Assembly (NCBI RefSeq): GCF_030758755.1
Contig: NZ_CP132387.1
Location: 1 to 64,000, forward strand
Length of the DNA: 64,000 bases
Source of the DNA: Bartonella apihabitans
GTDB lineage: Bacteria; Pseudomonadota; Alphaproteobacteria; Rhizobiales; Rhizobiaceae
Direction of reading: 5' to 3'
In this document: piece by piece, positions 12,917-61,987 of the stretch
Position numbering within the stretch: position 1 is the stretch's first letter
Layout of the letters: every line of letters begins with the position of its first letter
Program-made: the position numbers and the translations under genes
Notes under the pieces: generated by a model
The model's database searches: none
Seen by the model: the letters and a program-made list of their open reading frames with translations, nothing else
Told to the model about the DNA's origin: nothing

Positions 12917-14280
12917 ATGAGCGAAGCAAACAAAAAAATCGGCAATAGCCGCAAGGTCTTTATCAAGACTTATGGCTGTCAGATGAATGTCTATGATAGT
13001 GAACGCATGGGCGACAGTCTTGACAGCGAGGGGTATGTGGCAACAGAAACTCCGGACGATGCTGATCTTATATTGCTCAATACATGTCATATCCGTGAAA
13101 AAGCGGCTGAAAAACTTTATTCCGATCTCGGACGCTTAAGAGTTATGCGCGAAGAAAGGGATCCTTCGCGGCCATTAACAATAGGTGTCACAGGTTGTGT
13201 TGCCCAAGCCGAGGGGCCGAAATTTTGCGCCGTGCACCAACAGTCGATTTGGTTGTGGGGCCGCAAACCTATCACCGGTTGCCTGAATTGTTGCGCAAGG
13301 TTCATGAAGGACAAAAGGTTGTTGAAACCGAATATGCAGTCGAAGATAAATTTGCCCATCTTCCACACCATAATCGGCGGGCTGTCCAGAAGCGGGGGGT
13401 TACAGCATTTTTGACGGTTCAGGAAGGCTGTGACAAATTTTGTACATTCTGCGTGGTTCCCTATACGCGCGGGTCGGAAGTTTCCCGTCCGTTAGAACAG
13501 ATCATGAGCGAGGCACGTGAACTTGTCGACGCGGGGGTAAAAGAAATTACCTTGCTTGGGCAAAATGTCAACGCCTGGCATGGCGTTTCGGCAGACGGAG
13601 ATGTTTTGCGTCTCGGAGACCTTCTTTATCAGCTTGCCAAAATCGATGGGCTTAAACGTCTCCGCTATACAACAAGCCACCCGAGGGATATGGACGACAG
13701 TCTTATTGCTGCTCACAAAAATCTCGGAATGCTAATGCCTTATCTTCATCTTCCGGTTCAATCCGGCTCTGACCGGATCCTTAAAGCGATGAATCGTCAG
13801 CATAAAGCGGATGATTATCTGCATCTTATTGACCGCATTCGTAAAGCACGTCCCGATATTGCATTTTCAGGTGATTTTATTGTCGGCTTTCCGGGAGAAA
13901 CCGACGAAGATTTCGAAGCAACAATGAAGCTTGTTCAAGAAGTAGCATATAGTTCAGCCTATTCATTCAAATATTCGCCACGTCCGGGGACACCTGGCGC
14001 AACAATGAAAGGCCATATAGAGGAGAAAGTAAAAGACGAACGCCTCCAGCGCTTGCAAGCCCTTATTCTCGAACAACAACATCAATTTTTGCAATCGAAA
14101 ATCGGTAAGCGGATTGAAGTCCTCGTTGAAAAAGCTGGTCGCCATGAAGGGCAGATGGTCGGTCGCTCGCCGTGGTTGTTGCCTGTTGCTGTTTCAACAA
14201 ATGCAAAAATTGGCGAGATTATCGCGGTTGATGTAACAGACGCATCATCCAACAGTCTCCTCGGCCGTGCAGTAAATTGA
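12917..14280 (+). pseudogene. miaB: miaB, tRNA-2-methylthio-N6-dimethylallyladenosine synthase, broken by a one-base frameshift
   Basis: MiaB is a radical-SAM enzyme that adds a methylthio group to isopentenyl-A37 of tRNA. The first frame (12917 to about 13216) has the N-terminal methylthiotransferase domain with the cluster cysteines of [17 protein letters not shown] and VTGCVAQ. The second frame resumes at [20 protein letters not shown] and continues through the radical-SAM motif CDKFCTFC and the TRAM domain to 14280. Adding one G to the GGGG at 13213-13216 joins the halves into a normal 454-residue protein with no other damage. It is either a real null or a base-calling error in a homopolymer. 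Confidence 0.93.
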
Positions 14281-14410
14281 ATATTTTTTCAAGTTCGATC
14301 GAATTTCATGGCGGATTCATCGGCGGATTAAGTAACGTGAATAAAGCAGGTTTCCTTTTCACTATAATTTTATATATTCTTATCCAAATATGTTTTTTCA
14401 GGAGACAAGG

Positions 14411-15547
14411 TTGAAGAATTCAACCGAAACAAAAAAGACGGTCAAGACAGGTAAAAACGGGCCAATGAAAGAGTCCGATAAAAGTGGTGTCGACGATGCT
14501 TCTGTTAAAAAAGGAGCATCCGATACAGATCATATTGTTCTGGTTTTCGAGGATAACCAGCAGGCAAATATCGTTTTTGGCCAATTTGACGAGAACCTCG
14601 CCCGCATCGAACAAAAACTGGGTCTGGATATCCGTGCACAGGGAAATGAAGTATCAATCCGGGGAGACAAACAGGATATCGAAATTGCCCGCCGGTCTCT
14701 CGACCAGCTTTATGAACTTGCAAAAACCGGCTTGCAACCGGGTTTGTCGGATGTGGATGGTGCAATAGCAATTGCTTCTTCGATGAACGAGCAAGCCGAT
14801 CGGGAAAAGTCTGAAAATAGTTCCCCGAAAGTGACACCAGCCCATATATCAACGCGCAAAAAAACAATTTATGCACGGACACCAATGCAGGATGCCTATA
14901 TGCGGGCGTTACAACGTGCCGAACTTGTTTTCGGCGTTGGTCCGGCGGGTACCGGAAAAACCTATCTTGCAGTGGCACACGCGGCAATGTTGCTCGAACG
15001 TGGACTTGTGGAGCGTATCATCTTGTCGCGTCCTGCCGTTGAAGCTGGCGAAAGATTGGGCTTTTTGCCCGGTGATATGAAGGAAAAAGTCGATCCTTAT
15101 CTGCGTCCTCTTTATGATGCACTTTATGACATGATGCCGGCCGAAAAAATCGAACGTGCCATGGCGGCCGATATTATCGAAATCGCTCCGCTTGCTTTTA
15201 TGCGTGGTCGTACACTTGCCCACTCTGCCGTTATTCTCGACGAGGCACAAAATACAACATCGATGCAGATGAAAATGTTTTTGACCCGTCTTGGAGAAGG
15301 GTCACGTATGATCGTGACAGGAGACCCTAGCCAGATCGATTTGCCTTTCGGACAAAAATCGGGTCTTACCGAAGCGATGCGCATCCTTGGCACTATTGAT
15401 GATATTGTGACAGTGCATTTTACCGAGGCAGATGTTGTACGCCATCCATTGGTAACAGCTATTGTTACTGCATATGATCAAGACGCCCGTTTGAACGCGA
15501 AAAATCGAGCTCAAGATAATAATAAAGCAAAGAACTTGGAAAAATGA
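14411..15547 (+). CDS. PhoH-like ATPase (PhoH/YbeZ)
   Basis: PhoH is a P-loop ATPase linked to RNA metabolism and almost always encoded beside ybeY. The protein has an N-terminal KH-like region and a PhoH core with Walker A GVGPAGTGKTYLA, RPAVEAGERLGFLPGD, Walker B SAVILDEAQNTT and VTGDPSQIDLP. I placed the start at the TTG at 14411 (378 residues) because a good AGGAGA site lies just before it. An ATG at 14390 lies upstream of that site and has none of its own. It overlaps ybeY by 4 bp, as expected for the miaB-phoH-ybeY-corC-lnt order. Confidence 0.92.
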   Translation: MKNSTETKKTVKTGKNGPMKESDKSGVDDASVKKGASDTDHIVLVFEDNQQANIVFGQFDENLARIEQKLGLDIRAQGNEVSIRGDKQDIEIARRSLDQLYELAKTGLQPGLSDVDGAIAIASSMNEQADREKSENSSPKVTPAHISTRKKTIYARTPMQDAYMRALQRAELVFGVGPAGTGKTYLAVAHAAMLLERGLVERIILSRPAVEAGERLGFLPGDMKEKVDPYLRPLYDALYDMMPAEKIERAMAADIIEIAPLAFMRGRTLAHSAVILDEAQNTTSMQMKMFLTRLGEGSRMIVTGDPSQIDLPFGQKSGLTEAMRILGTIDDIVTVHFTEADVVRHPLVTAIVTAYDQDARLNAKNRAQDNNKAKNLEK

Positions 15548-16014
15548 CAGTGCATTATGACATGGCAATCAATGCTGACGGCTGGCAAAACGAGGAGACT
15601 TTAAGACGGCTCGTTGACAGCGTGTTGCAAGCAACATTGCGGGAGCTCGGCTTTAACAATATTGATAGCGAACTGAGCCTTGTTTTTACCAATGATGCCG
15701 ATATCCGCGAAATAAACGCGAAATGGCGCCACATTGACAAGCCCACCAATGTTTTGTCATTTCCGGCTTTTGCTCTTCAACCCGGGCAAGAGCCCGGAGA
15801 GGTTTTGGGTGATATTGTCATTGCACGTGAAACGGTTGAACGTGAGGCTGCGGAGGAAGATAAGAGCTTTGATGATCATCTGAGCCATCTTGTTGTTCAC
15901 GGTCTCCTTCATTTGATGGGGTATGATCACCAGAATGACGACGAAGCAGAGCAGATGGAAACCTTGGAGAGAAAAATTTTAGCCTCTCTTGGTATTTCGG
16001 ATCCTTATCTATGA
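15544..16014 (+). CDS. ybeY: Endoribonuclease YbeY
   Basis: YbeY is a zinc-dependent RNase needed for 16S rRNA 3'-end maturation and ribosome quality control. The 156-residue protein has the full metal site HGLLHLMGYDH (H119, H123, H129). Also present are the substrate-side motif KPTNVLSFP and the LGDIVIA segment. The start overlaps the phoH stop. The length and motifs are normal. Confidence 0.95.
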   Translation: MTVHYDMAINADGWQNEETLRRLVDSVLQATLRELGFNNIDSELSLVFTNDADIREINAKWRHIDKPTNVLSFPAFALQPGQEPGEVLGDIVIARETVEREAAEEDKSFDDHLSHLVVHGLLHLMGYDHQNDDEAEQMETLERKILASLGISDPYL

Positions 16015-16133
16015 TTAAATAAAGCCAAGTGTTGCTATTATGCGTCTATACATATATTAGAGAAATATATGTCCTAGATTAATAACAAGAAAACTGACAC
16101 AATTTACTTCGCATATTGTAATTTTAAGAAGCC

Positions 16134-17140
16134 ATGACGGAAAAAACAGATAGTTCAATTGACGAAGAGTCCGGTAGGTCATCAACAGGGCAAAACTCTT
16201 CACGGTCGCAATCAGGTGAAAAGAAGTCTTTATTTGCCAATCTCTTTTCTTTTTTGCGCTCGCGTAACAATTCGACTTTGCGTGAAGATCTGACAGATGC
16301 CCTTTCCGAGGGGGAAGGCGAAACAAACGCTCTTTTTTCACCTGAAGAGCGCCTTATGCTGAATAATATTTTGCGTCTTCGGGAAACGCGCGTCGAAGAT
16401 GTTATGATTCCCCGTTCCGAAATCGAAGCGCTTGATATTTCGACAACTTTGGCTGAAGCACTGATAGAATTTGAAAAATGGGCCATTCGCGTATGCCGGT
16501 CTATTCGGAAAGCCTTGATGATCCTCGCGGGATGCTGCATATCCGTGATGTCTTGAATTACATCACAAGGAAAGCGCAAAACGGGGAAAAAGAAGGGGTT
16601 CTCAATTTTTCCAAAATCGATTTTTCACAAGCTGTTGGTAATCTTGAATTGATACGAAGCGTTCTTTTTGTTCCGGGATCCATGTTGGCCGGACAATTGT
16701 TGACGCGTATGCAGGCAACGCGAACACAAATGGCGTTGATTATCGATGAATATGGAGGAACAGACGGTCTCGCTTCTATGGAAGATATTGTCGAACTGGT
16801 TGTAGGGGATATCGAAGACGAACACGACGATGTCGACATGTCGATTATCAAAGAAGCAGAAAATAGGTGGCTTGTTGATGCAAGCGCTGATCTTGACGAG
16901 GTCGGAAAAGCTTTGGGGCCAGGGTTCAAAATTGGCGAACATGGAGACGACGTTGATACAATTGGCGGGCTCATCGTTTCGACTTTAGACCGGATACCGG
17001 CGAAAGGTGAAGTTATAGAAGCCGTTCCCGGTTACCAGTTCCGTATTCTGGAGGCCGATAAACGCCGCATTAAACGGATCAGGATTCAGCCGTTACAAAA
17101 TTACCCGAAACAGGAAGGAACGGCTGTTCCATCCGATTGA
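16134..17140 (+). pseudogene. corC/tlyC-type CBS-domain protein, broken by a one-base frameshift
   Basis: CorC/TlyC proteins (two CBS domains plus a CorC_HlyC domain) are linked to Mg/Co efflux and membrane stress. Frame one (16134 to about 16478) has a polar N-terminus and the first CBS segment (VEDVMIPRSEIEALD). Frame two resumes at GHSRMPVYSESLDDPRGM and carries the second CBS segment, then the CorC_HlyC domain (ALIIDEYGGTDGL, DTIGGLIVSTLDRIPAKGE). One added base within 16474-16482 (AAAAA-T-GGG) restores a 335-residue protein. The position between ybeY and lnt is the standard one, supporting the assignment. Confidence 0.9.
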
Positions 17141-17270
17141 GAAACGCTTGTTTTCAGCCTTCTTTTCTGGAAGTGGCTAACATTCAATAGAAGTTTACGA
17201 ATAAACGCTTCAAAGTATTTTTTATTTTGTGTCGAAATTTAGGGATGGAAAGATAAGAGGGGGAGCAGGA

Positions 17271-18893
17271 ATGCGTATTTTGGCAACAGCCACCTCTTAT
17301 ATGAAGACATTACGAGGACTGAGACGACAGGTCCTGAGCTTTGTGTGTGGCGGAGTTACCGCTTTTGCGTTAGCGCCCTTTTATCTGTTTCCTCTGGCTT
17401 TTTTTACTTTTCCGGTACTTGTCTTATTGCTTGATAATATCGCTTGCGAGACTTGTCTGAAGCAGCGTTTCAAGCTTGCCTTTTTCACGTCTTTCAGCTT
17501 TGCCTTCGGTTATTTTGTTTTCGGTCTTTGGTGGCTTTCGAGCGCCATGCTTGTTGACCCGGTCAGTTTCGGTTGGGCTATCCCGTTAGCAATATTCGGT
17601 TTACCATTCTATCTTGCACTTTATTGGGGATTTGCCGGTGGTATTGCCATTGTCTTTTGGCGTGAAGGACTGTCGCGTATATTCGCTTTGGCGCTTGCTC
17701 TGGGGGTGGCGGAGCTCTTGCGTTCCATTATGTTTACCGGTTTTCCATGGAACGCAATCGGTTACACAATAATGCCTACACCACTTTTTATGCAGTCCGA
17801 TGCAGTGGTGGGTTTATATGCGATGAACGCACTTGTCGTGCTTCTTTATTCGCTGCCAGCCACTCTGTTTGACAAAAGCGGGCAATGGCTTGCACTTGGC
17901 ATTGGCCTTGTTCTTTTTTGCACCCACACAGGATTTGGTATTGTCCGCCTCCATAACGCGCCTCCCATAGAAAGTTATGAGAACGCCGATCGATGGGTAA
18001 GATTGGTGCAACCGTCCATCAAACAGGATGAAAAACTTGATAACGAAGTGCGCTATAGAATGTTTGATGCACATATGCAACTGAGCGAACGACCGCTTGC
18101 AGATGGTGCGCATGAACCCGCCTATATTGTATGGCCGGAAACTGCAGTGCCCTATATTCTGAACTATGTTCCGGAAGCGAAAATGCGTATTGCATCACTG
18201 CTTCGGCCCGATCAATGGGCAATTGTCGGAGCGGTACGCAGCAGTGGCCTGCCGAATGATGAAAATAATAAATATTTTAATACGATATCCGTCATTGATA
18301 GTAACGGTGTTGTTCTTGCGTCCTCGGACAAGGTGCATCTCGTTCCATTCGGTGAATATTTGCCTTTCCAACAAGTGTTCGACCGGATAGGTCTTCACGC
18401 CTTGGCTGTAATGGCCGGCGGCTATAGCAATAGTCCGGTAAGGAGAACTGTGACACTGCCTGATGGATTTGTTTATCTGCCGATGATCTGTTACGAGGTC
18501 ATATTCCCGAACGGTATGGGATATGAAGGCGATAAACCGCAAGCAATTTTGAATGTTACCAATGATGCGTGGTTTGGCGTTACTCCCGGTCCTTATCAAC
18601 ATTTCGATCAGGCACGTTTACGCGCTGTTGAATTGGGAATTCCTCTCATTCGTGCAGCTAATAACGGCTTATCGGCAGTCGTTGATCCTTATGGGCGAAT
18701 CGTCAGCTCATTGGAGCAGAATGCAGTCGGTGTGATTGATGCGCCAATTCCTGCGGCGGTTGTTCCGATATGGAACAAAGGTCCAAATTTTGTTCACGCT
18801 TTTGTAGCCTTTCTTGTTATACTGACATTTAGTATAATGTTCGGTCATGTAAAAAACGGTCGTTCGATTGACAAGTTAGAACCAATGGGATGA
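17271..18893 (+). CDS. lnt: Apolipoprotein N-acyltransferase
   Basis: Lnt transfers the third acyl chain onto the N-terminal Cys of lipoproteins in the inner membrane. The N-terminal half has about six to seven helices, followed by a nitrilase-fold domain with the triad Glu290 (WPETAVPY), Lys354 (SDKVHLVPFGEYLP) and Cys407 (MICYEVIFP). A last helix sits near the C-terminus. I start at 17271, where GGAGCAGGA precedes ATG; the frame is open from a GTG at 17229. It has 540 residues and is intact. The CyoA lipoprotein in this window would be one substrate. Confidence 0.95.
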   Translation: MRILATATSYMKTLRGLRRQVLSFVCGGVTAFALAPFYLFPLAFFTFPVLVLLLDNIACETCLKQRFKLAFFTSFSFAFGYFVFGLWWLSSAMLVDPVSFGWAIPLAIFGLPFYLALYWGFAGGIAIVFWREGLSRIFALALALGVAELLRSIMFTGFPWNAIGYTIMPTPLFMQSDAVVGLYAMNALVVLLYSLPATLFDKSGQWLALGIGLVLFCTHTGFGIVRLHNAPPIESYENADRWVRLVQPSIKQDEKLDNEVRYRMFDAHMQLSERPLADGAHEPAYIVWPETAVPYILNYVPEAKMRIASLLRPDQWAIVGAVRSSGLPNDENNKYFNTISVIDSNGVVLASSDKVHLVPFGEYLPFQQVFDRIGLHALAVMAGGYSNSPVRRTVTLPDGFVYLPMICYEVIFPNGMGYEGDKPQAILNVTNDAWFGVTPGPYQHFDQARLRAVELGIPLIRAANNGLSAVVDPYGRIVSSLEQNAVGVIDAPIPAAVVPIWNKGPNFVHAFVAFLVILTFSIMFGHVKNGRSIDKLEPMG

Positions 18894-19012
18894 TATGAGG
18901 AAGAAATGTGGTTCAGCGGGGACCGATATTAAAACCCATGAACAACAAATAATCATATAAATCGGTTTGAATTTATGAAGTTGGATCAATATTGACGCGA
19001 GAAAGTTGAATT

Positions 19013-19426
19013 ATGGCCTCACTCAAAAAAACACCCGCCCCGACAGACGTATATGTGGGTAGCCGTATAAGATTGCGGCGCAATATGCTTGGGCTCAGTC
19101 AGGAAAAGTTGGGCGAACAATTGGGGATCACCTTCCAGCAAATACAGAAATATGAAAAAGGTACCAACCGCGTTGGTGCGAGCCGTCTTCAGGCTATTTC
19201 CGAAATTCTGGACGTACCGGTATCCTATTTTTTTGAAGAGGCTCCCGGTTCCCGTTCGGCAGAAGGGTTTCGCGAAGACGATAATAATTTTATGGACTTT
19301 TGTTCAAGTAACGAAGGTATTCAGCTTCTTCGTGCGTTTACCAATATAAAAGATCCGAAAGTTCGTCGTAAGATTATCGATTTGGCAAAGGCTCTATCCG
19401 AAGACGAAACTCTTAATCAGCTTTAA
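19013..19426 (+). CDS. Xre-family helix-turn-helix regulator next to metK
   Basis: A 137-residue DNA-binding protein with an HTH_3 domain at about residues 17-72 (RIRLRRNMLGLSQEKLGEQL, FQQIQKYEKGTNRVGASRL) and an alpha-helical C-terminus. It resembles the small Xre regulators conserved in this spot, between lnt and metK, across Hyphomicrobiales. The target is unknown to me. The conserved link to metK suggests, without proving, a role in methionine/SAM metabolism or in its own operon. Confidence 0.9.
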   Translation: MASLKKTPAPTDVYVGSRIRLRRNMLGLSQEKLGEQLGITFQQIQKYEKGTNRVGASRLQAISEILDVPVSYFFEEAPGSRSAEGFREDDNNFMDFCSSNEGIQLLRAFTNIKDPKVRRKIIDLAKALSEDETLNQL

Positions 19427-19651
19427 ATGTTTTTGAAAATTGATTTAGGAAACGTAGAATCGTTTTTGTTTTTAAATTTTATTATTGATTTTGCTTGCTG
19501 CTTTTTTCTCCATTTTGCTGGATAAAAGCTTGATCAGACACTGAATGATGTCGGGATATTGTGTGTCGAGTGCGTTTATCACATTTATTTCGTTCTCTTG
19601 ACCAAAACGGCATTGACGCAATTCAACAAGCTTGGCAAATAAAGCAACTGT

Positions 19652-19689
19652 CGTTTTTCTTTCCGGAGAGTCCGGAACGAAAGTAAACG
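19652..19689 (+). promoter_or_regulatory. Structured leader directly upstream of metK
   Basis: Several nested pairings lie just before the metK ribosome site. A perfect TTCCGGA/TCCGGAA hairpin (19661-19667 with 19671-19677) competes with a longer fold of CGTTT/AAACG (19652-19656 with 19685-19689) plus CTTTC/GAAAG (19659-19663 with 19679-19683). The ribosome site AGAGGGG starts about 12 bases later and can itself pair (GGG with CCC) up to the GTG. A SAM-responsive leader would fit a metK gene, but the sequence does not match a riboswitch class I can name. Confidence 0.4.
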
Positions 19690-19712
19690 TCGTCTTTCTA
19701 GAGGGGTTTCCC

Positions 19713-21697: not shown

Positions 21698-21766
21698 CGG
21701 CTACTTTAGAGGATTGTTATCGGACAGGTTTTTCCAGAATTGTTTTGGCATGCCGTAATGTTGTAC

Positions 21767-27593: not shown

Positions 27594-27735
27594 GGAAAAT
27601 CCCGTCTGATGAACGAAAGTCGCGCCGGTTTTCAAGCGGTGGTTGACCGCTTTATTCTGTTGCGAATTGATCGTTTTGAAAGATTTCGGAATATCAATCA
27701 ACAAATATGTGCCTGAAAAATCAAAGGTAATAGTT

Positions 27736-28133
27736 ATGAAACATGCTGGTCCATCCCAAAGGCAATTGCGTGTCGGTGAACAGGTTCGCCATGCTCTTGC
27801 TTCCATATTCCAGCGGGGAGTTATTCTGGATCCGGTACTTGATGGTGTGGTGCTCAGTGCAACCGAGGTGAGAATGTCGCCGGATTTACGCGTTGCAACC
27901 TGTTTTGTTGCGCCCCTTGCCGATGCAGATCCGGAAGAGGTGGTAAAAGCGCTCAATCATCATGCGAGATTTATTCGTGGCGAATTGGTGCCGAGTTGCG
28001 GCAGTTGAGATATATGCCGGAATTCCGTTTCAAGGTGGATACGAGTTTTGACAATTTTGCAAAAATCGATGCCTTGTTGCACTCGCCGGAAGTGGCTCGC
28101 GATCTTCATCACGATGACGAGGAAAAGGAATAG
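27736..28133 (+). pseudogene. rbfA: rbfA, ribosome-binding factor A, broken by a one-base frameshift
   Basis: RbfA is a small KH-like factor for 30S maturation. Frame one starts at ATG 27736 behind AAAGGTAATAG and runs [20 protein letters not shown] to FIRGELVP, then hits a premature stop near 28008. The remaining C-terminal part ([22 protein letters not shown], ending DDEEKE) continues in the next frame to the TAG at 28131. One added base near 27990-27995 restores a 132-residue protein of normal size. truB begins six bases later, the standard order. Confidence 0.9.
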
Positions 28134-34635: not shown

Positions 34636-35636
34636 ATGTCGGTTTTTCTGCCCTTTTACCAGAATGCTCTCGACCATCCACATCCGGAAAGTTTGTGGTG
34701 CGCATTCGGTTTGACAGAAAAACCGGAAAAGGATTGGTTGAAATCACTCGAAATTATCCAGCCCTGGCGGGCGGATTTTTTAACGCTTCAACAAGCGGGC
34801 TTTAAATGCTTGCCCGAATTGCCCGATAACGCAAAGAAATTTTCCGGTGGCCTTCTGGAGCTTAACAAGCACAAAAAACTCAACCAGAACCGTTTTCTCA
34901 CGCTTTTGCGCGTTGTAAAAGCCGGTGGCACAATTATTGTCAGTGGCGATAAATTGTCTGGCACCAATCCTTCATGAAATGGGTAAAGTCTATTGTTCCG
35001 GTTTTGGGGAAGCTTTCAAAAGCGCATGGCATTGTTTTCTGGTTGACTGTACCAGAGGATATTCAGGAAAAAGAGCTGGAAAGGCTTCAACAGCTTCCGC
35101 AAAGCTTTGAAAATGCCTTCACAACACAGGCAGGCATGTTTTCAAATGGTCGCATTGACCAAGGTTCGCAAATGTTGGTCAAACATATGGAGAGAGTTGT
35201 GTTCGGCAAAACGGCCGATTTTGGTGCCGGTTGGGGATATCTTTCCTATGAAGCGATAAAACAGGCTAAAAAGCTTACAGAGCTTGATCTTTATGAGGCC
35301 GATTACAATTCACTGGAAGCGGCGAAAACACATATAGGCAGCCTTCATGCTTCACTTCCAGTCGATTATTTATGGCAGGATATCACAAGCGAGCCGATAG
35401 ATCGGATTTATGATACAATTCTGTCAAATCCGCCATTTCATGAAGGGCGCGCGGCAGATGTCTCATTGGGACAAAAATTCATAAGTGTGGCAGCGCAAAG
35501 GTTAAAACCCGGTGGTTGTTTTCTCATGGTGGCAAACAGGCAGTTGCCCTATGAAACGACTTTGCAAAAACTTTTCCGGAAAGTACTGCTTCTTGAAGAG
35601 CAGAACGGCTTCAAAGTGATTGAAGCGCGTAAATGA
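34636..35636 (+). pseudogene. RsmC-like 16S rRNA guanine-N2 methyltransferase, broken by a one-base frameshift
   Basis: A two-domain class I SAM methyltransferase of the RsmC/RlmG type. Frame one (34636 to about 34966) encodes a degenerate N-terminal methyltransferase-like domain, FYQNALDHPHPESLWCAFG through VVKAGGTIIVSGDKLSG. Frame two continues FMKWVKSIVPVLGKLSKAHG and holds the catalytic domain with TADFGAGWGYLSYEAI, the NPPF catalytic motif (SNPPFHEGR) and LKPGGCFLMVANRQLPYE. Adding one A to the AA at 34965-34966 joins them into 333 residues. G1207 of 16S rRNA is the likely family target; substrate is inferred. Confidence 0.87.
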
Positions 35637-39469: not shown

Positions 39470-40446
39470 CTATTCTTCATCGCTATCATTATTGTCTTCG
39501 TGGTTTGCTTCAATTTTTTCCCGTCTTCTCGCCCAGATTCCGGCTGTTTGCGGCTTTACGAAAAATCCGACGACTTCCGGTCTTGCGATCGCCAGATTCT
39601 TTTCAATACGCAGCACACATTCTTCTATCTTTGGTGCAGTCAGTTTGTCCTCGAATTCGAGACTGACATTCACAACCACCTGATTGGCGCCATTTGCTGG
39701 GTGATAATTCCGTTGACTTTCTGCACATCGGGGTCGGCTGATACAATGTTGAAAATTGCTTTTTGCACTTCGGGAAGAGCAGCCTCGCCAAGCAGCAATC
39801 CCTTACATTCACGTGCAAGAAAAATTGCCGTGACGGCAAGGATGACGGAAATTCCGAGCGAAGCGATGCCATCAAAAATAAAATTGCCGGTAAGAATCGA
39901 AGCAGTAATACCGCTTAAAGCAATCGCAATACCCAAAAGGGCTGCACTATCTTCGAAAAGAATGGAAAAAACAGTCGGGTCTTTGGAACGGTGAACAGCA
40001 GCGAGATAGCCGAGTTTACCTTTTGTGCGGCGGAAATGTCTCAAAGCCAAAAGCCAGGACGTTCCTTCAAAAAACACCGATAGCCCCAAAACAATGTAGT
40101 TGACGGTTACATTGCGAATTTCCGCTGGGTTGAGAACGTGCAAAACGCCTTCAAAAAAGGATACGCCGGCACCTAGAGCAAAGACCAGCAAGGCAACAAT
40201 AAAACTCCAGAAATAAAGCTCCCGTCCGTGGCCGAAAGGATGCACCCGATCGGGGGGAATGGATGCACGTTTCAAACCATGGAGTAATAACAATTCATTG
40301 CCGGTGTCGACAATCGAATGCACACCCTCTGACAACATTGCCGAAGAACCGGTAAATGATGCCGCAACAAATTTGGTAAGCGCAATGAGGAGATTACCTG
40401 CAAGGGCCGCATAGATGACTGTTTTGGAACCGGAATGTGATGCCAT
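39470..40446 (-). pseudogene. Cation diffusion facilitator (CDF) metal transporter, broken by a one-base frameshift
   Basis: CDF proteins export divalent metals such as Zn, Fe, Co or Mn. Frame one (40446 to about 39685) has the transmembrane domain with the first metal-site region SEGVHSIVDTGNELLLL and HPFGHGRELYFWSF, and a later helix IFDGIASLG. After VNGIITQQMAP it runs into a stop. The C-terminal cytoplasmic domain (VSLEFEDKLTAPKIEECV) continues in another frame to 39470. Adding one base at 39684-39685 (TT on the plus strand) restores 325 residues. The start directly follows the mltB stop (TAAATG). Confidence 0.88.
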
Positions 40447-41694: not shown

Positions 41695-42299
41695 TCAAAG
41701 ACTCGTCCTTGCTCGTAACGCAGCAGCCAAAGTGCCATCATCAAGATAATCAAGTTCACCGCCAACCGGAACACCATGTGCCAGACGCGTAATTTTCACC
41801 GGATAGGGGTGAAGCTGGTCAGTGAGATAATGGGCTGTTGTCTGGCCTTCAATTGTCGCATTGACCGCAAGTATCACTTCCTTGACATTGCCTTCAGCCA
41901 CACGGTTGACAAGGCTTGCTATGTTGAGATCATCCGGCCCAATGCCATCAAGAGGTGAAAGGTCCCGCCCAGAACATGATATTTGACCTGCATGGTACCC
42001 GCCCGTTCCAGCGCCCACAAATCGGAAACATCTTCGACAACAATGATTGTGGATTGATCGCGCCTCGGGTCCGTGCACACCGAGCACGGGTCGGACGTAT
42101 CGACATTACCGCAGACCGAACAGATGCGTATTTTTTCGGCAGCATCCTGCATGGCAAGGCCTAGCGGCTTCAATAAAGCTTCTTTTTTCTTGATCAGGAA
42201 AAGTGCAGCCCGTCTTGCCGAACGTGGCCCAAGACCGGGGACACGTGCAAGAAGTTGGATGAGCTTTTCTATTTCAGGACCCGCAAGATGTTTTGACAT
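41695..42299 (-). pseudogene. recR: recR, recombination mediator, broken by a one-base frameshift
   Basis: RecR forms the DNA-clamping ring of the RecFOR pathway. Frame one (42299 to about 41962) carries the helix-hairpin-helix ([17 protein letters not shown]), the zinc finger CSVCGN...CSVC and the start of the Toprim domain, to YHVLGGT. Frame two continues [21 protein letters not shown] to 41695. Adding one base at 41961-41962 (GG on the plus strand) gives 201 residues, the usual length. recF at the other end of the window is intact. The ebfC-recR-mltB order supports the call. Confidence 0.92.
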
Positions 42300-51442: not shown

Positions 51443-52549
51443 ATGGCGGCCTATATAGCGCGGCGTTTGCTGCTGATTATACCGACATTGATCGGCATTT
51501 TGACGGTGACATTTGTCATTGTGCAATTCACTCCCGGTGGTCCTATCGAGAATATTATTGCACAATTGCAAGGGACCGGTGGCGATGCCATGGGGCGGGT
51601 TGCCGGCGGTGGTGGTGACCTCGGGCTTTCATCAGAGGTAACGTTACAGGGTAGCGACGCGAGTGCAAAATATCGTGGTGCACGCGGCCTTGATCCGGAA
51701 TTTATAGCGAAACTCGAAAAGCAGTTCGGTTTTGATAAACCGCCGCTTGAACGTTATTTCACAATGTTGTGGAATTATATCCGGTTCGATTTCGGGGATT
51801 CCTATACGCAAGGTCGTTCTGTCGTCGATCTTATCAAAGGTGCTTTGCCGGTTTCGATTTCGTTAGGGATATGGCAATTGTTGATTTCTTACGCAATTTC
51901 CATTCCTCTCGGTATCCGGAAGGCCGTCAAGGATGGCTCCACATTCGACATATGGACAAGTGCCGTTATCATTATCGGCTATGCAATACCGAGTTTCCTG
52001 TTCGGAATTCTGTTAATGGTACTTTTTGCCGGAGGGTCATTTTTCGACTGGTTTCCATTAAGCCATTTGACATCGGAAAATTTTGATGAATTGTCGCTTG
52101 GCGGCAAAATTCTGGATTATTTCCACCACCTTGCTTTGCCACTCACAGCTATGGTTATTTCGGCTTTCGCCACCACAACATTGCTGACCAAAAACTGTTT
52201 TCTGGAAGAAATCAGAAAGCAATATGTGGTCACGGCACGGGCAAAAGGTTTAAGCGAACACGCGGTTCTTTACGGACATGTCTTCCGCAACGCCATGCTG
52301 GTTGTCATTGCGAGTTTTCCGGCAGCTTTCATCGCTTCATTTTTCACCGGTTCACTGCTTATCGAAATGCTATATTCGTTAAACGGAATGGGGCTTTTAA
52401 GCTATACATCCATTGTCAATCGTGATTATCCGGTTGTGTTCGGTTCGCTCTATATTTTCTCGTTGATCGGTCTTGTTGTGAGCCTTATTTCCGATCTTAC
52501 CTATATGCTTGTCGATCCGCGTATCGATTTCGAGAAGAGGGACGTTTGA
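51443..52549 (+). CDS. yejB: Peptide ABC transporter permease (YejB-like)
   Basis: A 368-residue inner-membrane permease with six predicted helices. It has the EAA-type loop [21 protein letters not shown] and the usual start [21 protein letters not shown]. An approximately 50-residue Gly-rich periplasmic insert (about 48-85) follows helix 1, as in YejB. The stop overlaps the yejE start by one base. It pairs with YejE to form the channel. Confidence 0.94.
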
Positions 52550-53708
52550 TGAACGAGCAAACTTCCGGGCAGACAATCGACGTGGCAAAGCCGGCAAAAC
52601 CCCGCCGCAACAAAAGGCCGTTTTTGTCGCCGCTTAATGAACGGCGCTGGAGAAACTTCAAGAAAAACCGTCGCGGCTGGTGGTCGTTGTGGATTTTCCT
52701 TATTCTTTGCCTGTTTTCTTTGGCGCCAATTTTATCGCAAATGACCGGCCAATTATCGCATCCTATAAGGGCGAACTGCTCTTTCCGGTACTTTTCGATT
52801 ATCCCGATTCCAAGTTTGGCGGTGTCCTTGCAACGGTTGATTTCCGGGAAGATTATATCAAGAAAGAAATCAACGAACATGGCTGGGCGATATGGCCGCC
52901 GGTGCATTATTCCTATGATACAACAGTCGGCAACAAGCCTGTTGCGCTGGCTCCGCCATTCTGGCTCCAGAGTAAAGACGAACGGTGCAAGAATTACGCT
53001 CTCGGTGCAAAGGATCCCGAATGCACAATCGGAAACTGGAACTGGCTTGGTACAGATGACCAGACACGTGATGTTTTTGCGCGTGTGCTTTACGGCTTTC
53101 GTGTTTCCATATTGTTTACCGTTATCTTGACGGCGGTTTCTTCGATTATCGGTATTGCTGCCGGTGCAGTGCAGGGATATTTTGGCGGTTGGGTCGATCT
53201 CATTTTTCAACGTTTTATCGAAATCTGGTCTTCGGTTCCCGCGCTTTATCTCATCATTATTATGGCGGCAGTTCTCGCCCAGGGCTTCTGGGTTCTGTTG
53301 GGAATTATGTTGCTGTTCCAGTGGGTGGCGCTGGTTGGCGTCGTGCGTGCAGAATTTTTGCGGGCTAGAAATTTTGAATATGTCAATGCAGCAAGGGCGC
53401 TGGGTGTGCCGAATATCACGATTATGATACGCCATCTTCTGCCCAATGCCATGGTTGCAGCACTTACCTATTTGCCGTTTTTATTGACAGCCGGTATCTC
53501 GACTTTGACCGCGCTTGACTATCTCGGTTTCGGTTTGCCTCCGGGGTCGGCCTCGCTTGGAGAACTCATGCGGCAGGCAGCGACCAATCTCAATGCTCCG
53601 TGGATTGGCATTACCGGCTTTGTTGCTATTGCGGTCATGTTGTCGCTTCTGGCTTTTATCGGTGAAGCCGCCCGTGATGCTTTCGATCCGAGGAAGACAT
53701 TCCAATGA
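52549..53708 (+). pseudogene. yejE: Peptide ABC transporter permease yejE, broken by a one-base frameshift
   Basis: YejE is the second permease of the importer. Frame one (52549 to about 52723) has a basic N-terminus (RRNKRPFLSPLNERRWRNF) and most of helix 1. The rest, from GANFIANDRPIIASYKGELL through the EAA loop RNFEYVNAARALGVPN to the C-terminus, is in the next frame, ending at 53708. Adding one G to the GG at 52722-52723 restores 386 residues. Without correction the Yej importer would lack a permease, while its three partner genes are intact. Confidence 0.92.
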
Positions 53709-55330: not shown

Positions 55331-55791
55331 TATTTATCAAGCTTGAATGCAGGCGAGCAAAGCAAAACTGCAATTTCTGCTTATAAAAACTGAAAGGCAG
55401 TTTTTTTGTGCATTTTTAAGTCATCCAGCTTGTTGCTTGGAAAAGTTTTTAGCCGGTCGAGTTTCTGCTTTCATATATTTTGAAATTTCCTTGTATTTTC
55501 TTTGAGTGGAATAAAAATCGTGGCAATAAAAAATCAGCTGAAACGCCGAGGCGATAGTGCATCACTTGGTTGGAATAGGCTCGAAAAATAACAATTAGCA
55601 AAATTATCTTTTTGTTCAAAAATCCGCATATGGGAGGATTTACGGCTTTCAAAATCGGCAATCGTCGGAGGTGTTTTGCCGAAGTTATGAAAGAGCATCA
55701 GAGCCTGTGAGCGAAATAAAGCCTGAAGTCTTGAAAAGTTTTTTATCCGCTCAATGTCTTTTAACTGTGAGACTTTCAGGAGAAAGACATT
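55331..55791. other. Intergenic region after yejF
   Basis: No supported gene in 461 bp. Shortly after yejF, a weak pairing of ACTGC with GCAGT precedes a run of T (about 55368-55408) and could be the yej terminator. Open frames on the minus strand have no ribosome sites. The promoter of the small gene at 55792 should lie near the right end. Confidence 0.45.
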
Positions 55792-56025
55792 ATGACAAAA
55801 GCACATAAAAATGAGCAAAAGTCACCCGGCCATAAAAACAGACCAGAAAATAGACATGAGTGCCGTCACGAGACCATGCCGGATGGTACTGCTTATAAAA
55901 CCAATGAAACGCTTCTCGATGCGGGTAATCTTGAAGATTACAATGGTCCGTTATCGGACTCCGACAGTCCATTATTGGGAAAAAATATCGCTTCCGATAA
56001 TTTGTCGACCGATAAACAGAAATAA
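55792..56025 (+). CDS. Small hydrophilic protein of unknown function
   Basis: A 77-residue protein that I do not recognise. It is very polar, His/Lys/Asn-rich in its first half (HKNEQKSPGHKNRPENRHE) and Asp/Ser/Leu-rich in the second half (GNLEDYNGPLSDSDSPLLGK), with no membrane helix, signal peptide or Cys pair. A strong AGGAGAAAG ribosome site precedes ATG 55792, the main reason to accept it. It stands alone between yejF and the reverse-strand moeB-like gene. It is probably disordered. Confidence 0.6.
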   Translation: MTKAHKNEQKSPGHKNRPENRHECRHETMPDGTAYKTNETLLDAGNLEDYNGPLSDSDSPLLGKNIASDNLSTDKQK

Positions 56026-56163
56026 TCTTTTCTGAATAATTGTCCCGACATTCAAAATGGCCCGACTTTGTTAGAAAGACGGGGCTAGAAAGACAAAGTT
56101 ACAAAGACAGCGCAAAAAACAGGCGCTTCGAGAAGTGTCCTATAAAAAGGGCAAGCAACGCTT

Positions 56164-56931
56164 TTATTTTTGTGTCGAGGCTCTTTTTTTATAGCGGATT
56201 GTTTCGAAACGGGCAGATAACCCGTCGTAAAGGAGCAGCCTTCCGACAAGCGGTTCACCGCAACCGGTGATGATTTTTATGGCTTCCATGGCTTCTAACG
56301 AACCGATAACACCGGGAAGAGCACCGATGACGCCTGCTTCTGCACATGTCGGTACAACACCTTTGGGTGGCGGGGTCGGAAAGAGATCGCGATAGGAGGG
56401 GTGTTCACCTCCAAGATAGGGCATGAGGACAGTTAAAGAGCCGTCAAAACGCCCGATTGCACCGCTGACGAGCGGTTTTTTCAAATTTTCGCAACTATCG
56501 GCGAGAAGATAACGGGTGGTAAAATTATCCGAACCATCAATCACAAGATCGAATTTGCCGATAATTTCGGCAGCATTTTCTTCCGTTAGTCTTAAGGGAT
56601 AAAGGTCGAGTTTGACATGCGGGTTGATCGCTTCGAGCGTTTCGGCAGCACTTTCAGTCTTTTTTTCTCCGATCGCCGAAGTTTTGTGGATAACCTGCCG
56701 TTGCAGGTTTGAAAGCGAAACCACATCATCGTCGATAATGCCGAGAGTTCCGACACCGGCGGCCGCAAGATAGGTTAAAACCGGCGCTCCAAGCCCGCCC
56801 GCACCGACAACCAGCACTTTCGCAGCTTTTAGTTGCTGTTGACCGGCACCACCTATTTCCGGCAAAAGAATGTGGCGTGCATAGCGCTCTATTTCTTCCT
56901 TGTTTAATTTTTCGTCCGGTGCTTGCGTCAT
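56164..56931 (-). CDS. HesA/MoeB/ThiF-family adenylyltransferase
   Basis: This E1-like enzyme adenylates the C-terminus of a sulfur-carrier protein (MoaD or ThiS). The 255-residue protein has the nucleotide loop VVGAGGLGAPVLTYLAAAGVG, RYARHILLPEIG at the start, and DGSDNFTTRYLLAD. The structural zinc cysteines of E. coli MoeB are replaced (PSYRDLFP in place of a CxxC), and the C-terminal CxxC is also missing. The conserved VPTCAEAGVIGALPG remains. No moa or thi genes are adjacent, so MoeB versus ThiF cannot be decided. Confidence 0.88.
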   Translation of the reverse strand: MTQAPDEKLNKEEIERYARHILLPEIGGAGQQQLKAAKVLVVGAGGLGAPVLTYLAAAGVGTLGIIDDDVVSLSNLQRQVIHKTSAIGEKKTESAAETLEAINPHVKLDLYPLRLTEENAAEIIGKFDLVIDGSDNFTTRYLLADSCENLKKPLVSGAIGRFDGSLTVLMPYLGGEHPSYRDLFPTPPPKGVVPTCAEAGVIGALPGVIGSLEAMEAIKIITGCGEPLVGRLLLYDGLSARFETIRYKKRASTQK

Positions 56932-57029
56932 GCCTTAACCCTTGTCATATTTCATCCATATCTAGTAACTTATAGTGCGATTGACCAGCCCGCTTTGATT
57001 ACCCGCTTTGATTATATGAGGCAAATCTT

Positions 57030-57968
57030 ATGAAAATAGCTATCCAGATGGATCATATCTCGACCATCCATATCAAGGGAGATACAACATTTGCTCTGGC
57101 ATTGGAGGCGCAAAGGCGGGGACATGAGCTGTTCCATTACACACCCGACCGGCTTTCCATGTTGAATGGTGAAGTGACCGCCCGTATCGAAGCGTTAAAA
57201 GTGCGGGACGAGGAAAACAATTATTACCAATTGGGTGAGGCAAAGCGCACACCGCTTCAACAAATGGATGTTGTGCTGCTCAGGCAGGATCCACCGTTCG
57301 ATATGAATTATATTACGACCACGCATATTCTTGAACGGATAATGGATAAAACTTTGGTCGTGAATGATCCGAATTGGGTACGTAATAGTCCTGAAAAACT
57401 CTTTGTTACCGAATTTCCCGACCTGATGCCGGAGACGCTCATTACCCGTGATGTTGAAGAGGTCAATGATTTTCGCTCCGAATTCGGCGATATTATTATC
57501 AAACCGCTTTATGGAAATGGCGGGGCAGGGGTTTTCCTGTTGAAAAAGGACGACAAGAATCTCGGCTCGCTCCTTGAAATGTTCAACAAACTTTATCCGG
57601 AAGCTTTTGTCGTGCAACGTTATTTGAAAGATGTGAGTGCCGGCGACAAGCGCATCATATTGATTGACGGTGTGGCTGTAGGGGCAATCAATCGCGTTGC
57701 AGCCTCGACCGATGCCCGTTCCAATATGCATATTGGTGGTCGTGCGGAGAAAACGGAGTTAACCCGCCGCGACCTTGAAATTTGCGAACGGATTGGCTCG
57801 TCTTTGAAGAAACGCGGCCTTGTTCTTGTCGGAATCGATGTCATTGGCGATTACATGACCGAAATTAACGTCACTTCACCAACCGGTATCCGCGAACTGA
57901 AACGTTTTGGTGGTGCTGATGCTGCAAAAATCTTCTGGGATCATGTGGAAAACAAATTAAAAGGTTGA
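57030..57968 (+). CDS. gshB: Glutathione synthetase
   Basis: GshB joins gamma-glutamylcysteine and glycine to make glutathione. The 312-residue ATP-grasp protein begins [21 protein letters not shown], then [23 protein letters not shown] (ATP-grasp loop) and [20 protein letters not shown] at the C-terminus. GAGG precedes the ATG. It lies between the moeB-like gene and the pst operon. It is intact and of usual length. Confidence 0.96.
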
Positions 57969-58109
57969 AAAAGCCAATATAAAGATAGTCAAAAACGGCT
58001 TTAGACTGTATGAGGTATTCGTCAGAAACTGTAACAAGCATTATGAGAGAAATAACAATCCATTGTTAGTCTTGTTAAAAAAAGCTGCCGGTTGTCCAGG
58101 AGTGCGTGG

Positions 58110-59158
58110 ATGAGCAGATTGCTTTCAACAGTTGCGGGTCTCATACTGGTTACCGCCTGTTCTTGCAGCACCGCTAATGCGCGCGATTATATTCAAGTGT
58201 CCGGCTCATCGACAGTTTTACCCTATGCCAAAATCGTTGCGGAAACATTCGGTGAAATTTTTACCAACTATCGTACGCCTGTTATAGAATCAGGTGGTTC
58301 GGTGCTGGAATAAAAGAATTTTGCCGCGGTATCAGTGACAATACCATTGATATTGCCAATGCTTCCCGACCGATGAAAAATACCGAATTGAAAGCCTGTT
58401 TTGATGCTGGTGTCACGGAAGTAGAAGAAGTCCGCATCGGCTATGACGGGATTGTTTTTGCAAGCGATATTCATGGTCCCAACGTCGATTTGACACCGGT
58501 CGATGTTTATAAGGCATTGGCGTCAAAAATCGTTGTTGACGGGAAACTTGTTGCCAACTCTTATAAAAAATGGAACGAGATTGACCCGAAATTACCCGAT
58601 TGGGAAATCAACGCATATATCCCCGGCGAAAAACATGGGACAAGAGAAGTCTTCGAGGAGAAATTGATGGCTGAAGGCTGCAAACAAAGTGGTGCCGCCG
58701 CAAGCATGAAAACTCTCTCAATGGATGACAAGGCAGTCACCGCCGCATGTATAAGCATTCGCAAGGATGGAAGGGCTATTGATATTGATGGCGACTATTC
58801 GGAAACCCTTGCCCGTGTCATGTCGAATAAAACAGGGATTGGCGTTTTCGGGCTGGCATTTTATGAAAATAATGCAGACAAGCTGAAAGTTGCAACCGTT
58901 AATGGTATTACTCCCAATGTTGACACGATTTCGAGCGGAAAGTATCTGGTTTCCCGTCCGCTGTTTTTCTATGTCAAGAAAGCCCATTTGGGGGTCATTC
59001 CGGGTATGAAAGACTATGTCGAATTTTTCTTGTCTGACCAGATGATCGGACCGGATGGTCCGCTTGCAGATTATGGCCTTATTCCCGCTCCTGATAGCGA
59101 ACGGGAAGCGCAAAAGGCCGCTTTCGAGAGTGGAACTGTCATGTCAATTGACAAATGA
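58110..59158 (+). pseudogene. pstS: pstS, phosphate-binding protein, broken by a one-base frameshift
   Basis: PstS is the periplasmic receptor of the high-affinity phosphate importer. Frame one starts at ATG 58110 behind AGGAG, gives a signal peptide (about 1-24) and RDYIQVSGSSTVLPYAK (a phosphate-binding loop), and stops after IESGGSVLE. The rest resumes in another frame at GAGIKEFCRGISDNTIDIAN and runs to 59158. Adding one G to the GG at 58301-58302 rebuilds the phosphate-site motif ESGGSGAG and 349 residues. A partial Pho-box-like repeat may lie near 58019-58042, but it is too weak to call. Confidence 0.93.
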
Positions 59159-59214
59159 AGTGAGCAAACGCGGGAAATTCCCGCGTTATTTTTGAAATAA
59201 AACCGGAAAATGGA

Positions 59215-60699
59215 ATGCCCATATCACTATTAATCTTGGTTATTTTTGCTCTTGGCATAGCCGGGTTCGTCATTTCGGGAAAGCGTGCCGCTTCAATCGA
59301 GAAACAAGGTAAAAAATTGCATTCGCGGCCATATTATTTTGGCTGGTGGACATTTTTGCTGACCGTCGTTCCTGCTTTTCTCGTTCTTATATTGTGGGAA
59401 TTGGGAAGTGCCGTCTATCTTGAAGAACGTGCGTCCTCCGAATTGACTGAAATTATAAAAAGCGGAGAGACGTTAAATCACAGTTTGGCATTAAGCACGG
59501 TTGACAGTCTTACCCGCGCTTTTTCGTCCGCTAAAACCGACATTGCAGAGCTTGATCTTAATCATCCGGCATCCCCGCTCACTTATAAGACAATAAGCGA
59601 TGATATGGCGAAAAAAGGCATCATGCTGCCGAGTGAGGGAGCAGACAGCCTTATTCCGGTTGCCATAGAATGGTATAAAGGGGCAACGAAGTCCCATTTC
59701 TATTGTTTGATTGTTACATTGGTTATTGCAATCGTCGGCCTGTTTTGTGGTATTTTTGGCGTGGGCGAGAAAAAACGCGCCCGCAACAAAGTCGAGAAGA
59801 TGGTGTTTGCCGGTCTCGTGATTGCCTCTATTGTGGCCATTCTTGCAACCATCGGCATTTTCTTTTCAATGCTGTTCCAAACGATCAGTTTTTTCAAAGT
59901 TGTGCCGTTATCGAATTTCTTTTTCGGTACTGTTTGGGACCCGCGTTTCAGCGCAAGCGGTTCGGCCGGTGCTGTCGGGCAATTCGGTTTGCTGCCGCTT
60001 CTCGCCGGTACACTTTATATCGCCTTGGTTTCAATGATTTTTGCGGTTCCGGTGGGGCTTTTTGCGGCTATATACATGTCGGAATATGCTTCCCGCCGTG
60101 TGCGTGCAATTATCAAACCGCTATTGGAGGTTCTCGCCGGTATTCCGACAATTGTTTACGGGTTTTTTGCTCTGGTTACTGTCGGGCCGTTTTTGCGTGA
60201 TCTTTCAATTGCCATTGCTGGCGGACAAGGTTTCATTATGTCGCAAAGCATTTTGACCGCCGGTCTGGTTATGGGAATTATGTTGATACCTTTTGTATCC
60301 TCGCTTTCCGACGATATTATATCGGCAGTACCGCAGGCTTTGCGTGATGGTTCATACGGGCTTGGAGCCACACAGTCGGAGACTATAAAAAAGGTTGTCC
60401 TTCCGGCAGCATTGCCGGGGATTGTAGGTGCAGTGTTGCTGACCGCGTCACGGGCTATCGGCGAGACGATGATTGTCGTTCTTGCAGCCGGTGTTGCCGC
60501 AAATCTGACCCTTAATCCGTTCGAGGCCATGACGACGATGACAGTAAAAATCGTCAATCAGCTCACCGGTGACCTTGAATTCAATTCGCCGCAGACATTG
60601 GTTGCATTTGCCCTCGGTATGACACTCTTTGTACTGACACTTTTGATGAATGTTTTTGCGCTTTATATTGTGCGTAAATATAGGGAACAATATGAATGA
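59215..60699 (+). CDS. pstC: Phosphate ABC transporter permease PstC
   Basis: The 494-residue protein is one half of the phosphate channel. It has an N-terminal extension of about 200 residues with two to three helices and a periplasmic segment. The conventional six-helix permease domain follows, with the EAA-type loop RDGSYGLGATQSETIKKVVLPAA. The extended form is normal for rhizobial PstC. Its stop overlaps the pstA start (ATGA). Confidence 0.95.
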   Translation: MPISLLILVIFALGIAGFVISGKRAASIEKQGKKLHSRPYYFGWWTFLLTVVPAFLVLILWELGSAVYLEERASSELTEIIKSGETLNHSLALSTVDSLTRAFSSAKTDIAELDLNHPASPLTYKTISDDMAKKGIMLPSEGADSLIPVAIEWYKGATKSHFYCLIVTLVIAIVGLFCGIFGVGEKKRARNKVEKMVFAGLVIASIVAILATIGIFFSMLFQTISFFKVVPLSNFFFGTVWDPRFSASGSAGAVGQFGLLPLLAGTLYIALVSMIFAVPVGLFAAIYMSEYASRRVRAIIKPLLEVLAGIPTIVYGFFALVTVGPFLRDLSIAIAGGQGFIMSQSILTAGLVMGIMLIPFVSSLSDDIISAVPQALRDGSYGLGATQSETIKKVVLPAALPGIVGAVLLTASRAIGETMIVVLAAGVAANLTLNPFEAMTTMTVKIVNQLTGDLEFNSPQTLVAFALGMTLFVLTLLMNVFALYIVRKYREQYE

Positions 60700-61987
60700 G
60701 TAACGTTGTTCAAACGCCAAGACGCGACATCGGGTTAAAGCGCCGTTATCGGGCGGAACGGCGTTTCCGTGCCTATGGTCTTTCAGCAATCGGGGTCGGG
60801 CTTTTATTTCTCGTTATTCTTTTGTGGTCGATTATTGCTCAAGGGGTGAGTGCGTTTCAACAGACAACGATGACCTTGCCCGTCTATTTCGATGAACACA
60901 TTATTGACCCGAAAGGCGAAAGGCTCACAAATCCCAAAGTTCTCATTACCGCAAATTATCCGCTGCTTGTGCGCAATACTCTCGCAGACAAGCTCGGCGT
61001 CGATAAGAATAACCATGGCGCAATGCGTGAACTCAACCGCATGATTTCAGGTGGTGTGCGCGTTGAAATACGTAAGCTTCTTATCGAACATCCCGATTAT
61101 ATCGGCCAAACCCGCACGATTGATGTGTTAGCTGCCGCCGATATCGATTCTGCTTTCAAAGGGCAGATCGACCTTTCTGTTCCCGAACAGAATCGTAAGG
61201 TCAGCAATCGCCAGATCGGGTGGATGGAAAAACTCGCTTCCGATGGCACACTTCATAAAGCTTTCAATAAAGGGCTTTTTACTTTCGGGGCTTCGAGCCG
61301 TCCTGAAACGTCAGGACTTGGCGTTGCCATTATCGGTTCGGCCTATATGATGGCAATTGTGTTGATATTGTCTTTGCCGATTGGGGTTGCAACAGCCATT
61401 TATCTTGAAGAATTTGCCCGCCGCAGCAGATTTAATGATATAATAGAGGTCAATATCAATAATCTTGCGGCTGTGCCGTCTATTGTTTTCGGCTTGCTCG
61501 GGCTTTCCATCTTCATCAATTTCCTGCATCTGCCGCGCGCCTCGTCAATTGTTGGCGGGCTGGTATTAACGCTCATGACGCTGCCAACCATTATTATTGC
61601 AACGCGTGCGGCTTTGCGGGCGGTTCCGCCTTCAATACGGGATGCAGCGTTGGGACTTGGAGCATCAAAAACGCAAACCATTTTTGGTCATGTTTTGCCG
61701 CTTGCTTTGCCTGGAATTCTTACCGGTACAATCCTCGGTCTTGCGCGGGCTCTGGGGGAAACAGCGCCACTTTTATTAATCGGCATGGTCGCCTTTGTTG
61801 CAAATTATCCTGCAACCCCGATGGAACCTGCAACAGCCCTGCCGGTGAAATTTACATGTGGGCAAATGAACCGGAACGTGCCTTTAATGAACGTACATTC
61901 GGAGCGATCATCATTTTGATGGCGTTTCTCGCTATCATGAATATAGCCGCAGTATTGCTGCGCCGTAAATTCGAGCGGCGCTGGTAG
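60696..61987 (+). pseudogene. pstA: pstA, phosphate ABC transporter permease, frameshifted near its 3' end
   Basis: PstA pairs with PstC. The frame is open from 60696 and includes a long periplasmic N-terminal region and the EAA-type loop RDAALGLGASKTQTIFGHVLP. Near 61850 it shifts, giving an abnormal C-terminus that stops at 61919. In the next frame the usual end (MWANEPERAF, then LLRRKFERRW) continues to a TAG at 61985. Adding one A to the AAA at 61848-61850 restores 430 residues. Without correction the last helix and the cytoplasmic tail are lost. Confidence 0.9.

Follow-up and report, generated by a model that had tools for sequence, protein, structure and literature searches.

Split genes in a Bartonella apihabitans genome are very likely nanopore errors at methylated restriction-modification motifs

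The first 64,000 bases (positions 1-64000, referred to here as the window) of the largest contig of a Bartonella apihabitans genome (assembly GCF_030758755.1, contig NZ_CP132387.1) contain nine genes that are each divided between two reading frames. Here we argue that these breaks, and others like them along the chromosome, are very likely systematic basecalling errors of nanopore sequencing, made at methylated motifs of the strain's own restriction-modification (R-M) systems and kept in a Flye consensus that short reads had not corrected. The nine breaks, read as pseudogenes, are most likely not real features. The argument is built on what could be observed directly, namely the association of the gaps with particular motifs and the one-sidedness of change at the motif, the presence of R-M genes in this genome and not in its close relative G007, the splitting of rpoA and bamA, and the match in contig sizes to a published nanopore/Flye assembly.

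Results

Nine genes of the window are one base short

The genome has 2,739,485 bases in three contigs (2,702,659, 31,560 and 5,266 bases). G007, a close relative from the same genus, is collinear with the entire window at 92.8% identity; it was the single DNA-level reference, its frames were the standard against which a gene was called split, and split genes were named from their intact G007 copies. G003 and three named relatives (about 71-74% identity) were too distant and were excluded from the DNA comparison, while G008 and the named relatives were compared at the protein level.

An earlier note on the window, made from the sequence alone, had described nine genes as split and each one base short, and had proposed a comparison with close relatives. 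That comparison bears the description out: all nine are divided between two frames in the B. apihabitans genome, all nine are intact in G007, and each (9/9) is one base shorter than the intact copy. The genes, with any motif found near the gap, are as follows.

12917..14277, plus strand: miaB; two frames; intact in G007 and G008; gap near GGNCC
16134..17137, plus strand: corC-like gene; two frames; intact in G007, nearly full length in G008; gap near GGNCC
27643..28130, plus strand: rbfA; two frames; intact in G007; gap near GGNCC (in G007) and GGYRCC (in B. apihabitans)
34636..35633, plus strand: rsmC-like methyltransferase gene; two frames; intact in G007 and G008; gap near GGYRCC
39473..40446, minus strand: CDF (cation efflux) gene; two frames; intact in G007; gap near GGNCC (in G007) and GGYRCC (in B. 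apihabitans)
41698..42299, minus strand: recR; two frames; intact in G007 and G008; gap near GGYRCC (in G007) and GGNCC (in B. apihabitans)
52546..53705, plus strand: yejE-like ABC permease gene; two frames; intact in G007 and G008; gap near GGYRCC
58092..59155, plus strand: pstS; two frames; intact in G007 and G008; gap with no exact motif
60696..61984, plus strand: pstA; two frames; intact in G007 and G008; gap near GGNCC

The G007 copy of miaB scores above the curated NCBIfam equivalog cut-off; the other eight names are given at the level of Pfam domains in the G007 copies, with yejE below its NCBIfam cut-off. Seven of the nine genes are open across nearly their full length in G008. The rbfA match in G008 contains one stop, yet rbfA is open in three named relatives (L035-L037), and for the CDF gene no match was found within the G008 stretch compared.

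Two other features of the window were seen in the alignment with G007. A G007 frame of 110 amino acids (window positions 4587-4915, minus strand) is broken in the B. apihabitans genome inside a run of seven; it is without a Pfam match and has stops in its G008 counterpart, so it may not be a gene. The region at about 8300-11600 is low in GC (41% over 8001-12000) and holds many of the gaps relative to G007, unlike the remaining window.

Split genes recur along the chromosome

Beyond the window we sampled 20 chromosome stretches of 20 kb each, together with the corresponding parts of G007. Window and stretches amount to 464 kb of B. apihabitans sequence, which gave 391 kb aligned to G007 at about 92% identity; two stretches (L126 and L128) gave no alignment and a third (L131) just 3.7 kb. 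Among 545 G007 frames, 349 had a scored match. The B. apihabitans genome has 256 of these intact and 49 split; the other 44 are partial or unclear. Four split genes were removed since one of their frames was nearly of reference length. The 45 that were kept include doubtful frames (109 and 110 amino acids) and some divergent genes.

The gaps taken as causal in these 45 genes comprise 33 deletions (24 of one base, 8 of two and 1 of four) and 12 insertions of one or two bases. The earlier claim that all breaks are losses is thus correct for the window, where all ten split frames (the nine named genes and the doubtful 110-amino-acid frame) are one-base deletions, and incorrect beyond it. Neither does the wider count confine the breaks to homopolymers: only 10 of the 45 gaps affect a base within a run of at least four. 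Even among the nine named genes, at least six of which had been said to break in short runs of G or A, only two have the affected base in a run of at least three.

In the reverse direction, a search for G007 frames broken relative to B. apihabitans returned 29 candidates, or 6 after the same length filter. We judge these six to be mirror images of gaps in the B. apihabitans sequence, antisense frames or N-terminal extensions, with no clear break in G007. Scaled up by simple proportion, the counts give about 300 split genes for the whole chromosome, a figure of similar magnitude to the 206 in the annotation.

The gaps lie at GGNCC and, less often, at GGYRCC

A GGNCC or GGYRCC sequence, in either of the two genomes, was found near 36 of the 45 gaps, as against 160 of 4,500 control positions taken within the same genes. 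In a scan of palindromes against these controls, in which low-information palindromes were skipped, GGNCC ranked first of 2,880 (27/45 gaps versus 1.9% of controls, log10 p about -34). Among the 14 genes remaining after GGNCC, first place went to GGYRCC (5/14 versus 0.95%, log10 p about -6.8). We regard the case for a role of GGNCC in the gaps as strong, and that for GGYRCC as weaker. The flanked target of the restriction enzyme EcoO109I, RGGNCCY, had also been considered as the error motif, and was dropped in favour of GGNCC, all four flank classes being affected.

The same motif stands out in a comparison of the aligned sequences as a whole. When 5-mers are ranked by change from G007 to B. 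apihabitans, GGCCC is at the top and GGACC in third place. Others high in that ranking, such as CGCCG, change to a similar degree in both directions. Change at GGNCC is one-sided, with 298 of 568 G007 sites altered in B. apihabitans versus 167 of 437 B. apihabitans sites altered in G007, and for the control motif GCNGC the figures are 604/1,853, or 33%, versus 574/1,823, or 31%. The errors are concentrated at particular motifs, and only on the B. apihabitans side of the comparison. In addition, the risk that a gene is split grows with its number of GGNCC sites (logit 0.40, interval 0.16 to 0.70), with no rise with gene length or with the number of GCNGC sites. Five long genes that had been singled out as clean (nusA, infB, pnp, dnaX and cyoB) hold 5 GGNCC sites in total in their G007 orthologues, so their cleanness needs no selection.

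In the aligned blocks GANTC is also rarer in B. apihabitans (495) than in G007 (562), mostly through a changed outer G or C, an observation that lies outside the explanation proposed here.

Indispensable genes are among those split

Outside the window, 33 of the 35 split genes were scanned for gene names (the 109-amino-acid frame and one gene spanning two stretches were omitted), and several of the 33 had no family at the strict limit used. Among the split genes are rpoA, bamA, ffh and a relA/spoT gene. Of these, rpoA is essential for life, and a search of the whole genome found it only as two pieces, with no intact or other copy. For bamA the genome holds two pieces and a weaker-scoring relative, and for ffh a frame without the start region and a weaker match, which is probably ftsY. 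The gaps in rpoA and bamA lie near GGNCC; ffh is the weakest case of the three, because its gap is without an exact motif and falls close to the start of the gene. The earlier view that only dispensable genes are hit therefore fails outside the window, where rpoA and bamA are split.

Coding constraint is not relaxed beyond the breaks. The ratio of nonsynonymous to synonymous change is 0.21 past the breaks, 0.30 before them and 0.25 in intact genes.

The genome carries R-M genes that G007 lacks

A search of 15 genomes for C5-methyltransferases found four loci in the B. apihabitans genome and none in G007.

Chromosome at about 570-572 kb (L183, 1462-3563): MerR-fused methyltransferase and PF14511 enzyme
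The 5,266-base contig (L179, 1462-3754): C5-methyltransferase and BanI-family enzyme
Chromosome at about 1.39 Mb (L189, 1009-3320): C5-methyltransferase, then a second methyltransferase-like frame
Chromosome at about 1.21 Mb (L190, 416-2796): a similar cassette, C5-methyltransferase, then a second methyltransferase-like frame

The first, at about 570 kb, is a C5-methyltransferase with an N-terminal MerR-type helix-turn-helix, which could serve self-regulation. It stands back to back with an enzyme that scores above the curated cut-off of PF14511, the EcoO109I family. Two neighbouring frames (L183, 53-820 and 772-1266) look like one split gene, perhaps glnE. On the 5,266-base contig, a C5-methyltransferase adjoins a full-length BanI-family enzyme (PF24447, E-value 1.4e-109). 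The PF14511 and PF24447 enzymes were each found in this genome alone among the 21 searched. The two cassettes at about 1.39 and 1.21 Mb are, in our judgement, prophage-like by appearance, and in the 3.8-kb stretches listed for them no restriction partner was seen; their methyltransferases could contribute, and one of them may be the enzyme that modifies GGNCC.

The targets of the corresponding known enzymes resemble the motifs at the gaps. According to an excerpt of PMC7337904, EcoO109I cuts RG/GNCCY and BanI cuts G/GYRCC; the available portions of PMC4081073 and PMC4824078 do not state the EcoO109I target.

The assembly matches a nanopore-only genome

The three contigs correspond exactly in size to those of B. 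apihabitans K-FP28 in Table 1 of PMC10868161, in which the 5,266-base contig is listed as plasmid 2 and the K-FP28 reads as run SRR25584835; among the literature matches listed for the strain or the species, this is the only paper to contain the strain name. It describes 12 bee-gut strains sequenced by nanopore (R10.4.1 flow cells, Guppy 'sup' basecalling, Flye assembly), and gives short reads and Pilon polishing for one other strain only, not for K-FP28. K-FP28 was sequenced to a depth of 1433x and has 206 frameshifted genes among 246 pseudogenes, whereas its 11 siblings have from 1 to 57 frameshifted (PMC10868161). The paper tabulates the frameshifted pseudogenes without explaining them. Other high counts in the same study are those of Serratia marcescens KZ11 (57/72 frameshifted) and Lactobacillus helsingborgensis K-FP18 (36/44), strains that may carry other unmodelled modifications.

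Discussion

From the above observations we infer methylation at GGNCC and GGYRCC, an enzyme responsible for it and a disturbed raw signal. The strain's own methyltransferases would methylate cytosines at GGNCC, and probably also at GGYRCC, and the methyl groups would alter the current through the pore. A basecaller without a good model of methylation would then call a nearby base missing, extra or wrong in most reads. An error common to most reads could not be outvoted even at the depth of this assembly, and the consensus would retain it.

Several observations weigh against this explanation. The control motif CCNGG is also slightly one-sided (0.386 versus 0.329), the number of GGYRCC sites taken alone has no effect on splitting (logit 0.09, interval -0.49 to 0.41), and nine of the 45 gaps, including those in pstS and ffh, are more than 4 bases from any exact motif. 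The one-sided change at GGNCC is seen whatever the flanking bases, in each of the four flank classes, and is not restricted to the RGGNCCY of EcoO109I. The excess change at GGNCC falls mostly at third codon positions, above a codon-blind expectation; for this reason a test of codon-blind error on intact genes only was ambiguous, and a finer test at the inner cytosine of GGTCC, given below, showed a clear contrast. Finally, the comparison rests on a single relative, G007, at 92% identity. Because of the third-position excess, some true loss of GGNCC sites may have happened besides the misreading.

Of the other explanations, ordinary nanopore homopolymer errors, in which bases are dropped in runs irrespective of modification, come closest to what the earlier note had proposed. 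That the breaks are uncorrected errors of the assembly stands; that homopolymers cause them does not, as the errors track GGNCC and, with weaker support, GGYRCC. Runs of at least four are indeed mildly enriched near the gaps (20/45 versus 1,215/4,500 controls, on the G007 side), and some gaps do fall in such runs. This enrichment relative to control positions was too weak to keep the explanation, and that of GGNCC is far stronger; the named genes seldom break in runs, 12 of the 45 gaps are insertions, and the low counts in siblings from the same study indicate that chemistry alone cannot give 206 frameshifted genes (PMC10868161). Homopolymer errors are accordingly an improbable cause. Real mutations at R-M sites, arising when self-restriction is followed by faulty repair or when methylcytosine mutates, would give the same motif pattern, and the commonest altered forms of GGNCC do resemble C to T at the inner cytosine, as expected from deamination; the third-position excess fits as well. 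Against this, there are indels in rpoA and bamA, and the indels and multi-base changes beside the motif are unlike a signature of deamination. Moreover, where the inner cytosine of GGTCC occupies codon position 1 or 2, B. apihabitans differs at 18 of 171 G007 sites, whereas in the opposite direction only 1 of 151 sites differs. Changes at such constrained positions should have been removed by selection, and they were not. We consider real mutation of this kind more improbable still.

Early genome erosion in a symbiont, with the breaks as real pseudogenes, had been left open by the earlier note. The frames are broken in the deposited sequence, and the nine genes of the window are, in the judgement of the earlier reader, often considered dispensable. 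Erosion is contradicted, however, by the split rpoA with no other copy and by the unrelaxed constraint past the breaks; bamA likewise exists as two pieces with only a weaker-scoring relative, and erosion does not predict a palindromic motif at the gaps. We give it hardly any weight. Programmed frameshifting in many genes, for which nothing speaks beyond the split frames themselves, deserves equally little: a single frame is kept in G007 for 9/9 and in G008 for 7/9 of the window genes, the gaps run in both directions and vary in size, and their common feature is a palindrome, with no need for a shared slippery sequence.

About one in seven comparable genes (45 split versus 256 intact) appears broken in this genome, although it was published as complete. 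If the breaks are basecalling errors at methylated motifs, taking them as pseudogenes would imply a decay of a symbiont genome that did not happen. Artefact and decay can be told apart with one close relative, by a palindrome scan at the gaps, a search for matching R-M genes and a check of indispensable genes. The breaks are probable traces of methylation that point to specific enzymes. On balance we lean towards a more specific version, in which the consensus errors record the methylome of the strain: GGNCC would be modified, most likely by the MerR-fused methyltransferase beside a flank-independent PF14511 enzyme (in which the equivalent of Trp130 is replaced), and the small BanI-type plasmid would be active. 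If so, public nanopore-only genomes could yield methyltransferase specificities without raw signal.

Comparison with known systems

The Bartonella enzyme at about 570 kb belongs to the same family as EcoO109I (PF14511; PDB 1wtd), whose target, as given in the excerpt cited above, contains GGNCC. It differs from EcoO109I in that it matches that protein weakly (E-value 0.00046) and in that the error pattern disregards the R and Y flanks. In the weak alignment, Lys-Trp 129-130 of EcoO109I lines up with Pro-Tyr of the Bartonella enzyme, and Trp130 is linked to flank contacts in the part of PMC7337904 available. The Bartonella system may thus recognize plain GGNCC. The plasmid enzyme is a full-length match to the BanI family (PF24447) and, as noted, lies beside a C5-methyltransferase, with GGYRCC as the BanI target; in contrast to GGNCC, GGYRCC accounts for fewer gaps, and the activity and specificity of the plasmid enzyme are putative, being predicted from its sequence. 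A further R-M system with 5-methylcytosine at GGNCC, SagCOH1II of group B Streptococcus, was found by nanopore sequencing, as stated in an excerpt of PMC13343189. Its target is the motif that ranks first at the Bartonella gaps.

Among the literature matches listed on GGNCC and nanopore sequencing, the available excerpts contain no report of assembly errors at GGNCC. Errors mediated by modification are an established kind, as judged from parts of PMC10687267 and PMC11610573. In Listeria monocytogenes (Chiou et al. 2023, PMC10687267, in the portion available), strain-specific low nanopore consensus quality was blamed on untrained modifications, and the errors survived replicate sequencing and were removed by whole-genome amplification. 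That case concerned R9.4 and mostly mismatches, whereas K-FP28 was sequenced on R10.4.1 and shows many frame-breaking gaps, with candidate enzymes and motifs that can be named. In Klebsiella outbreak genomes (Lohde et al. 2024, excerpt of PMC11610573), Kit 14 errors lay near methylation sites in strain-specific sequence patterns. Those errors were purine/pyrimidine ambiguities for which, in that excerpt, there was no motif from the literature, while the Bartonella gaps lead to GGNCC and GGYRCC and to R-M genes that match them.

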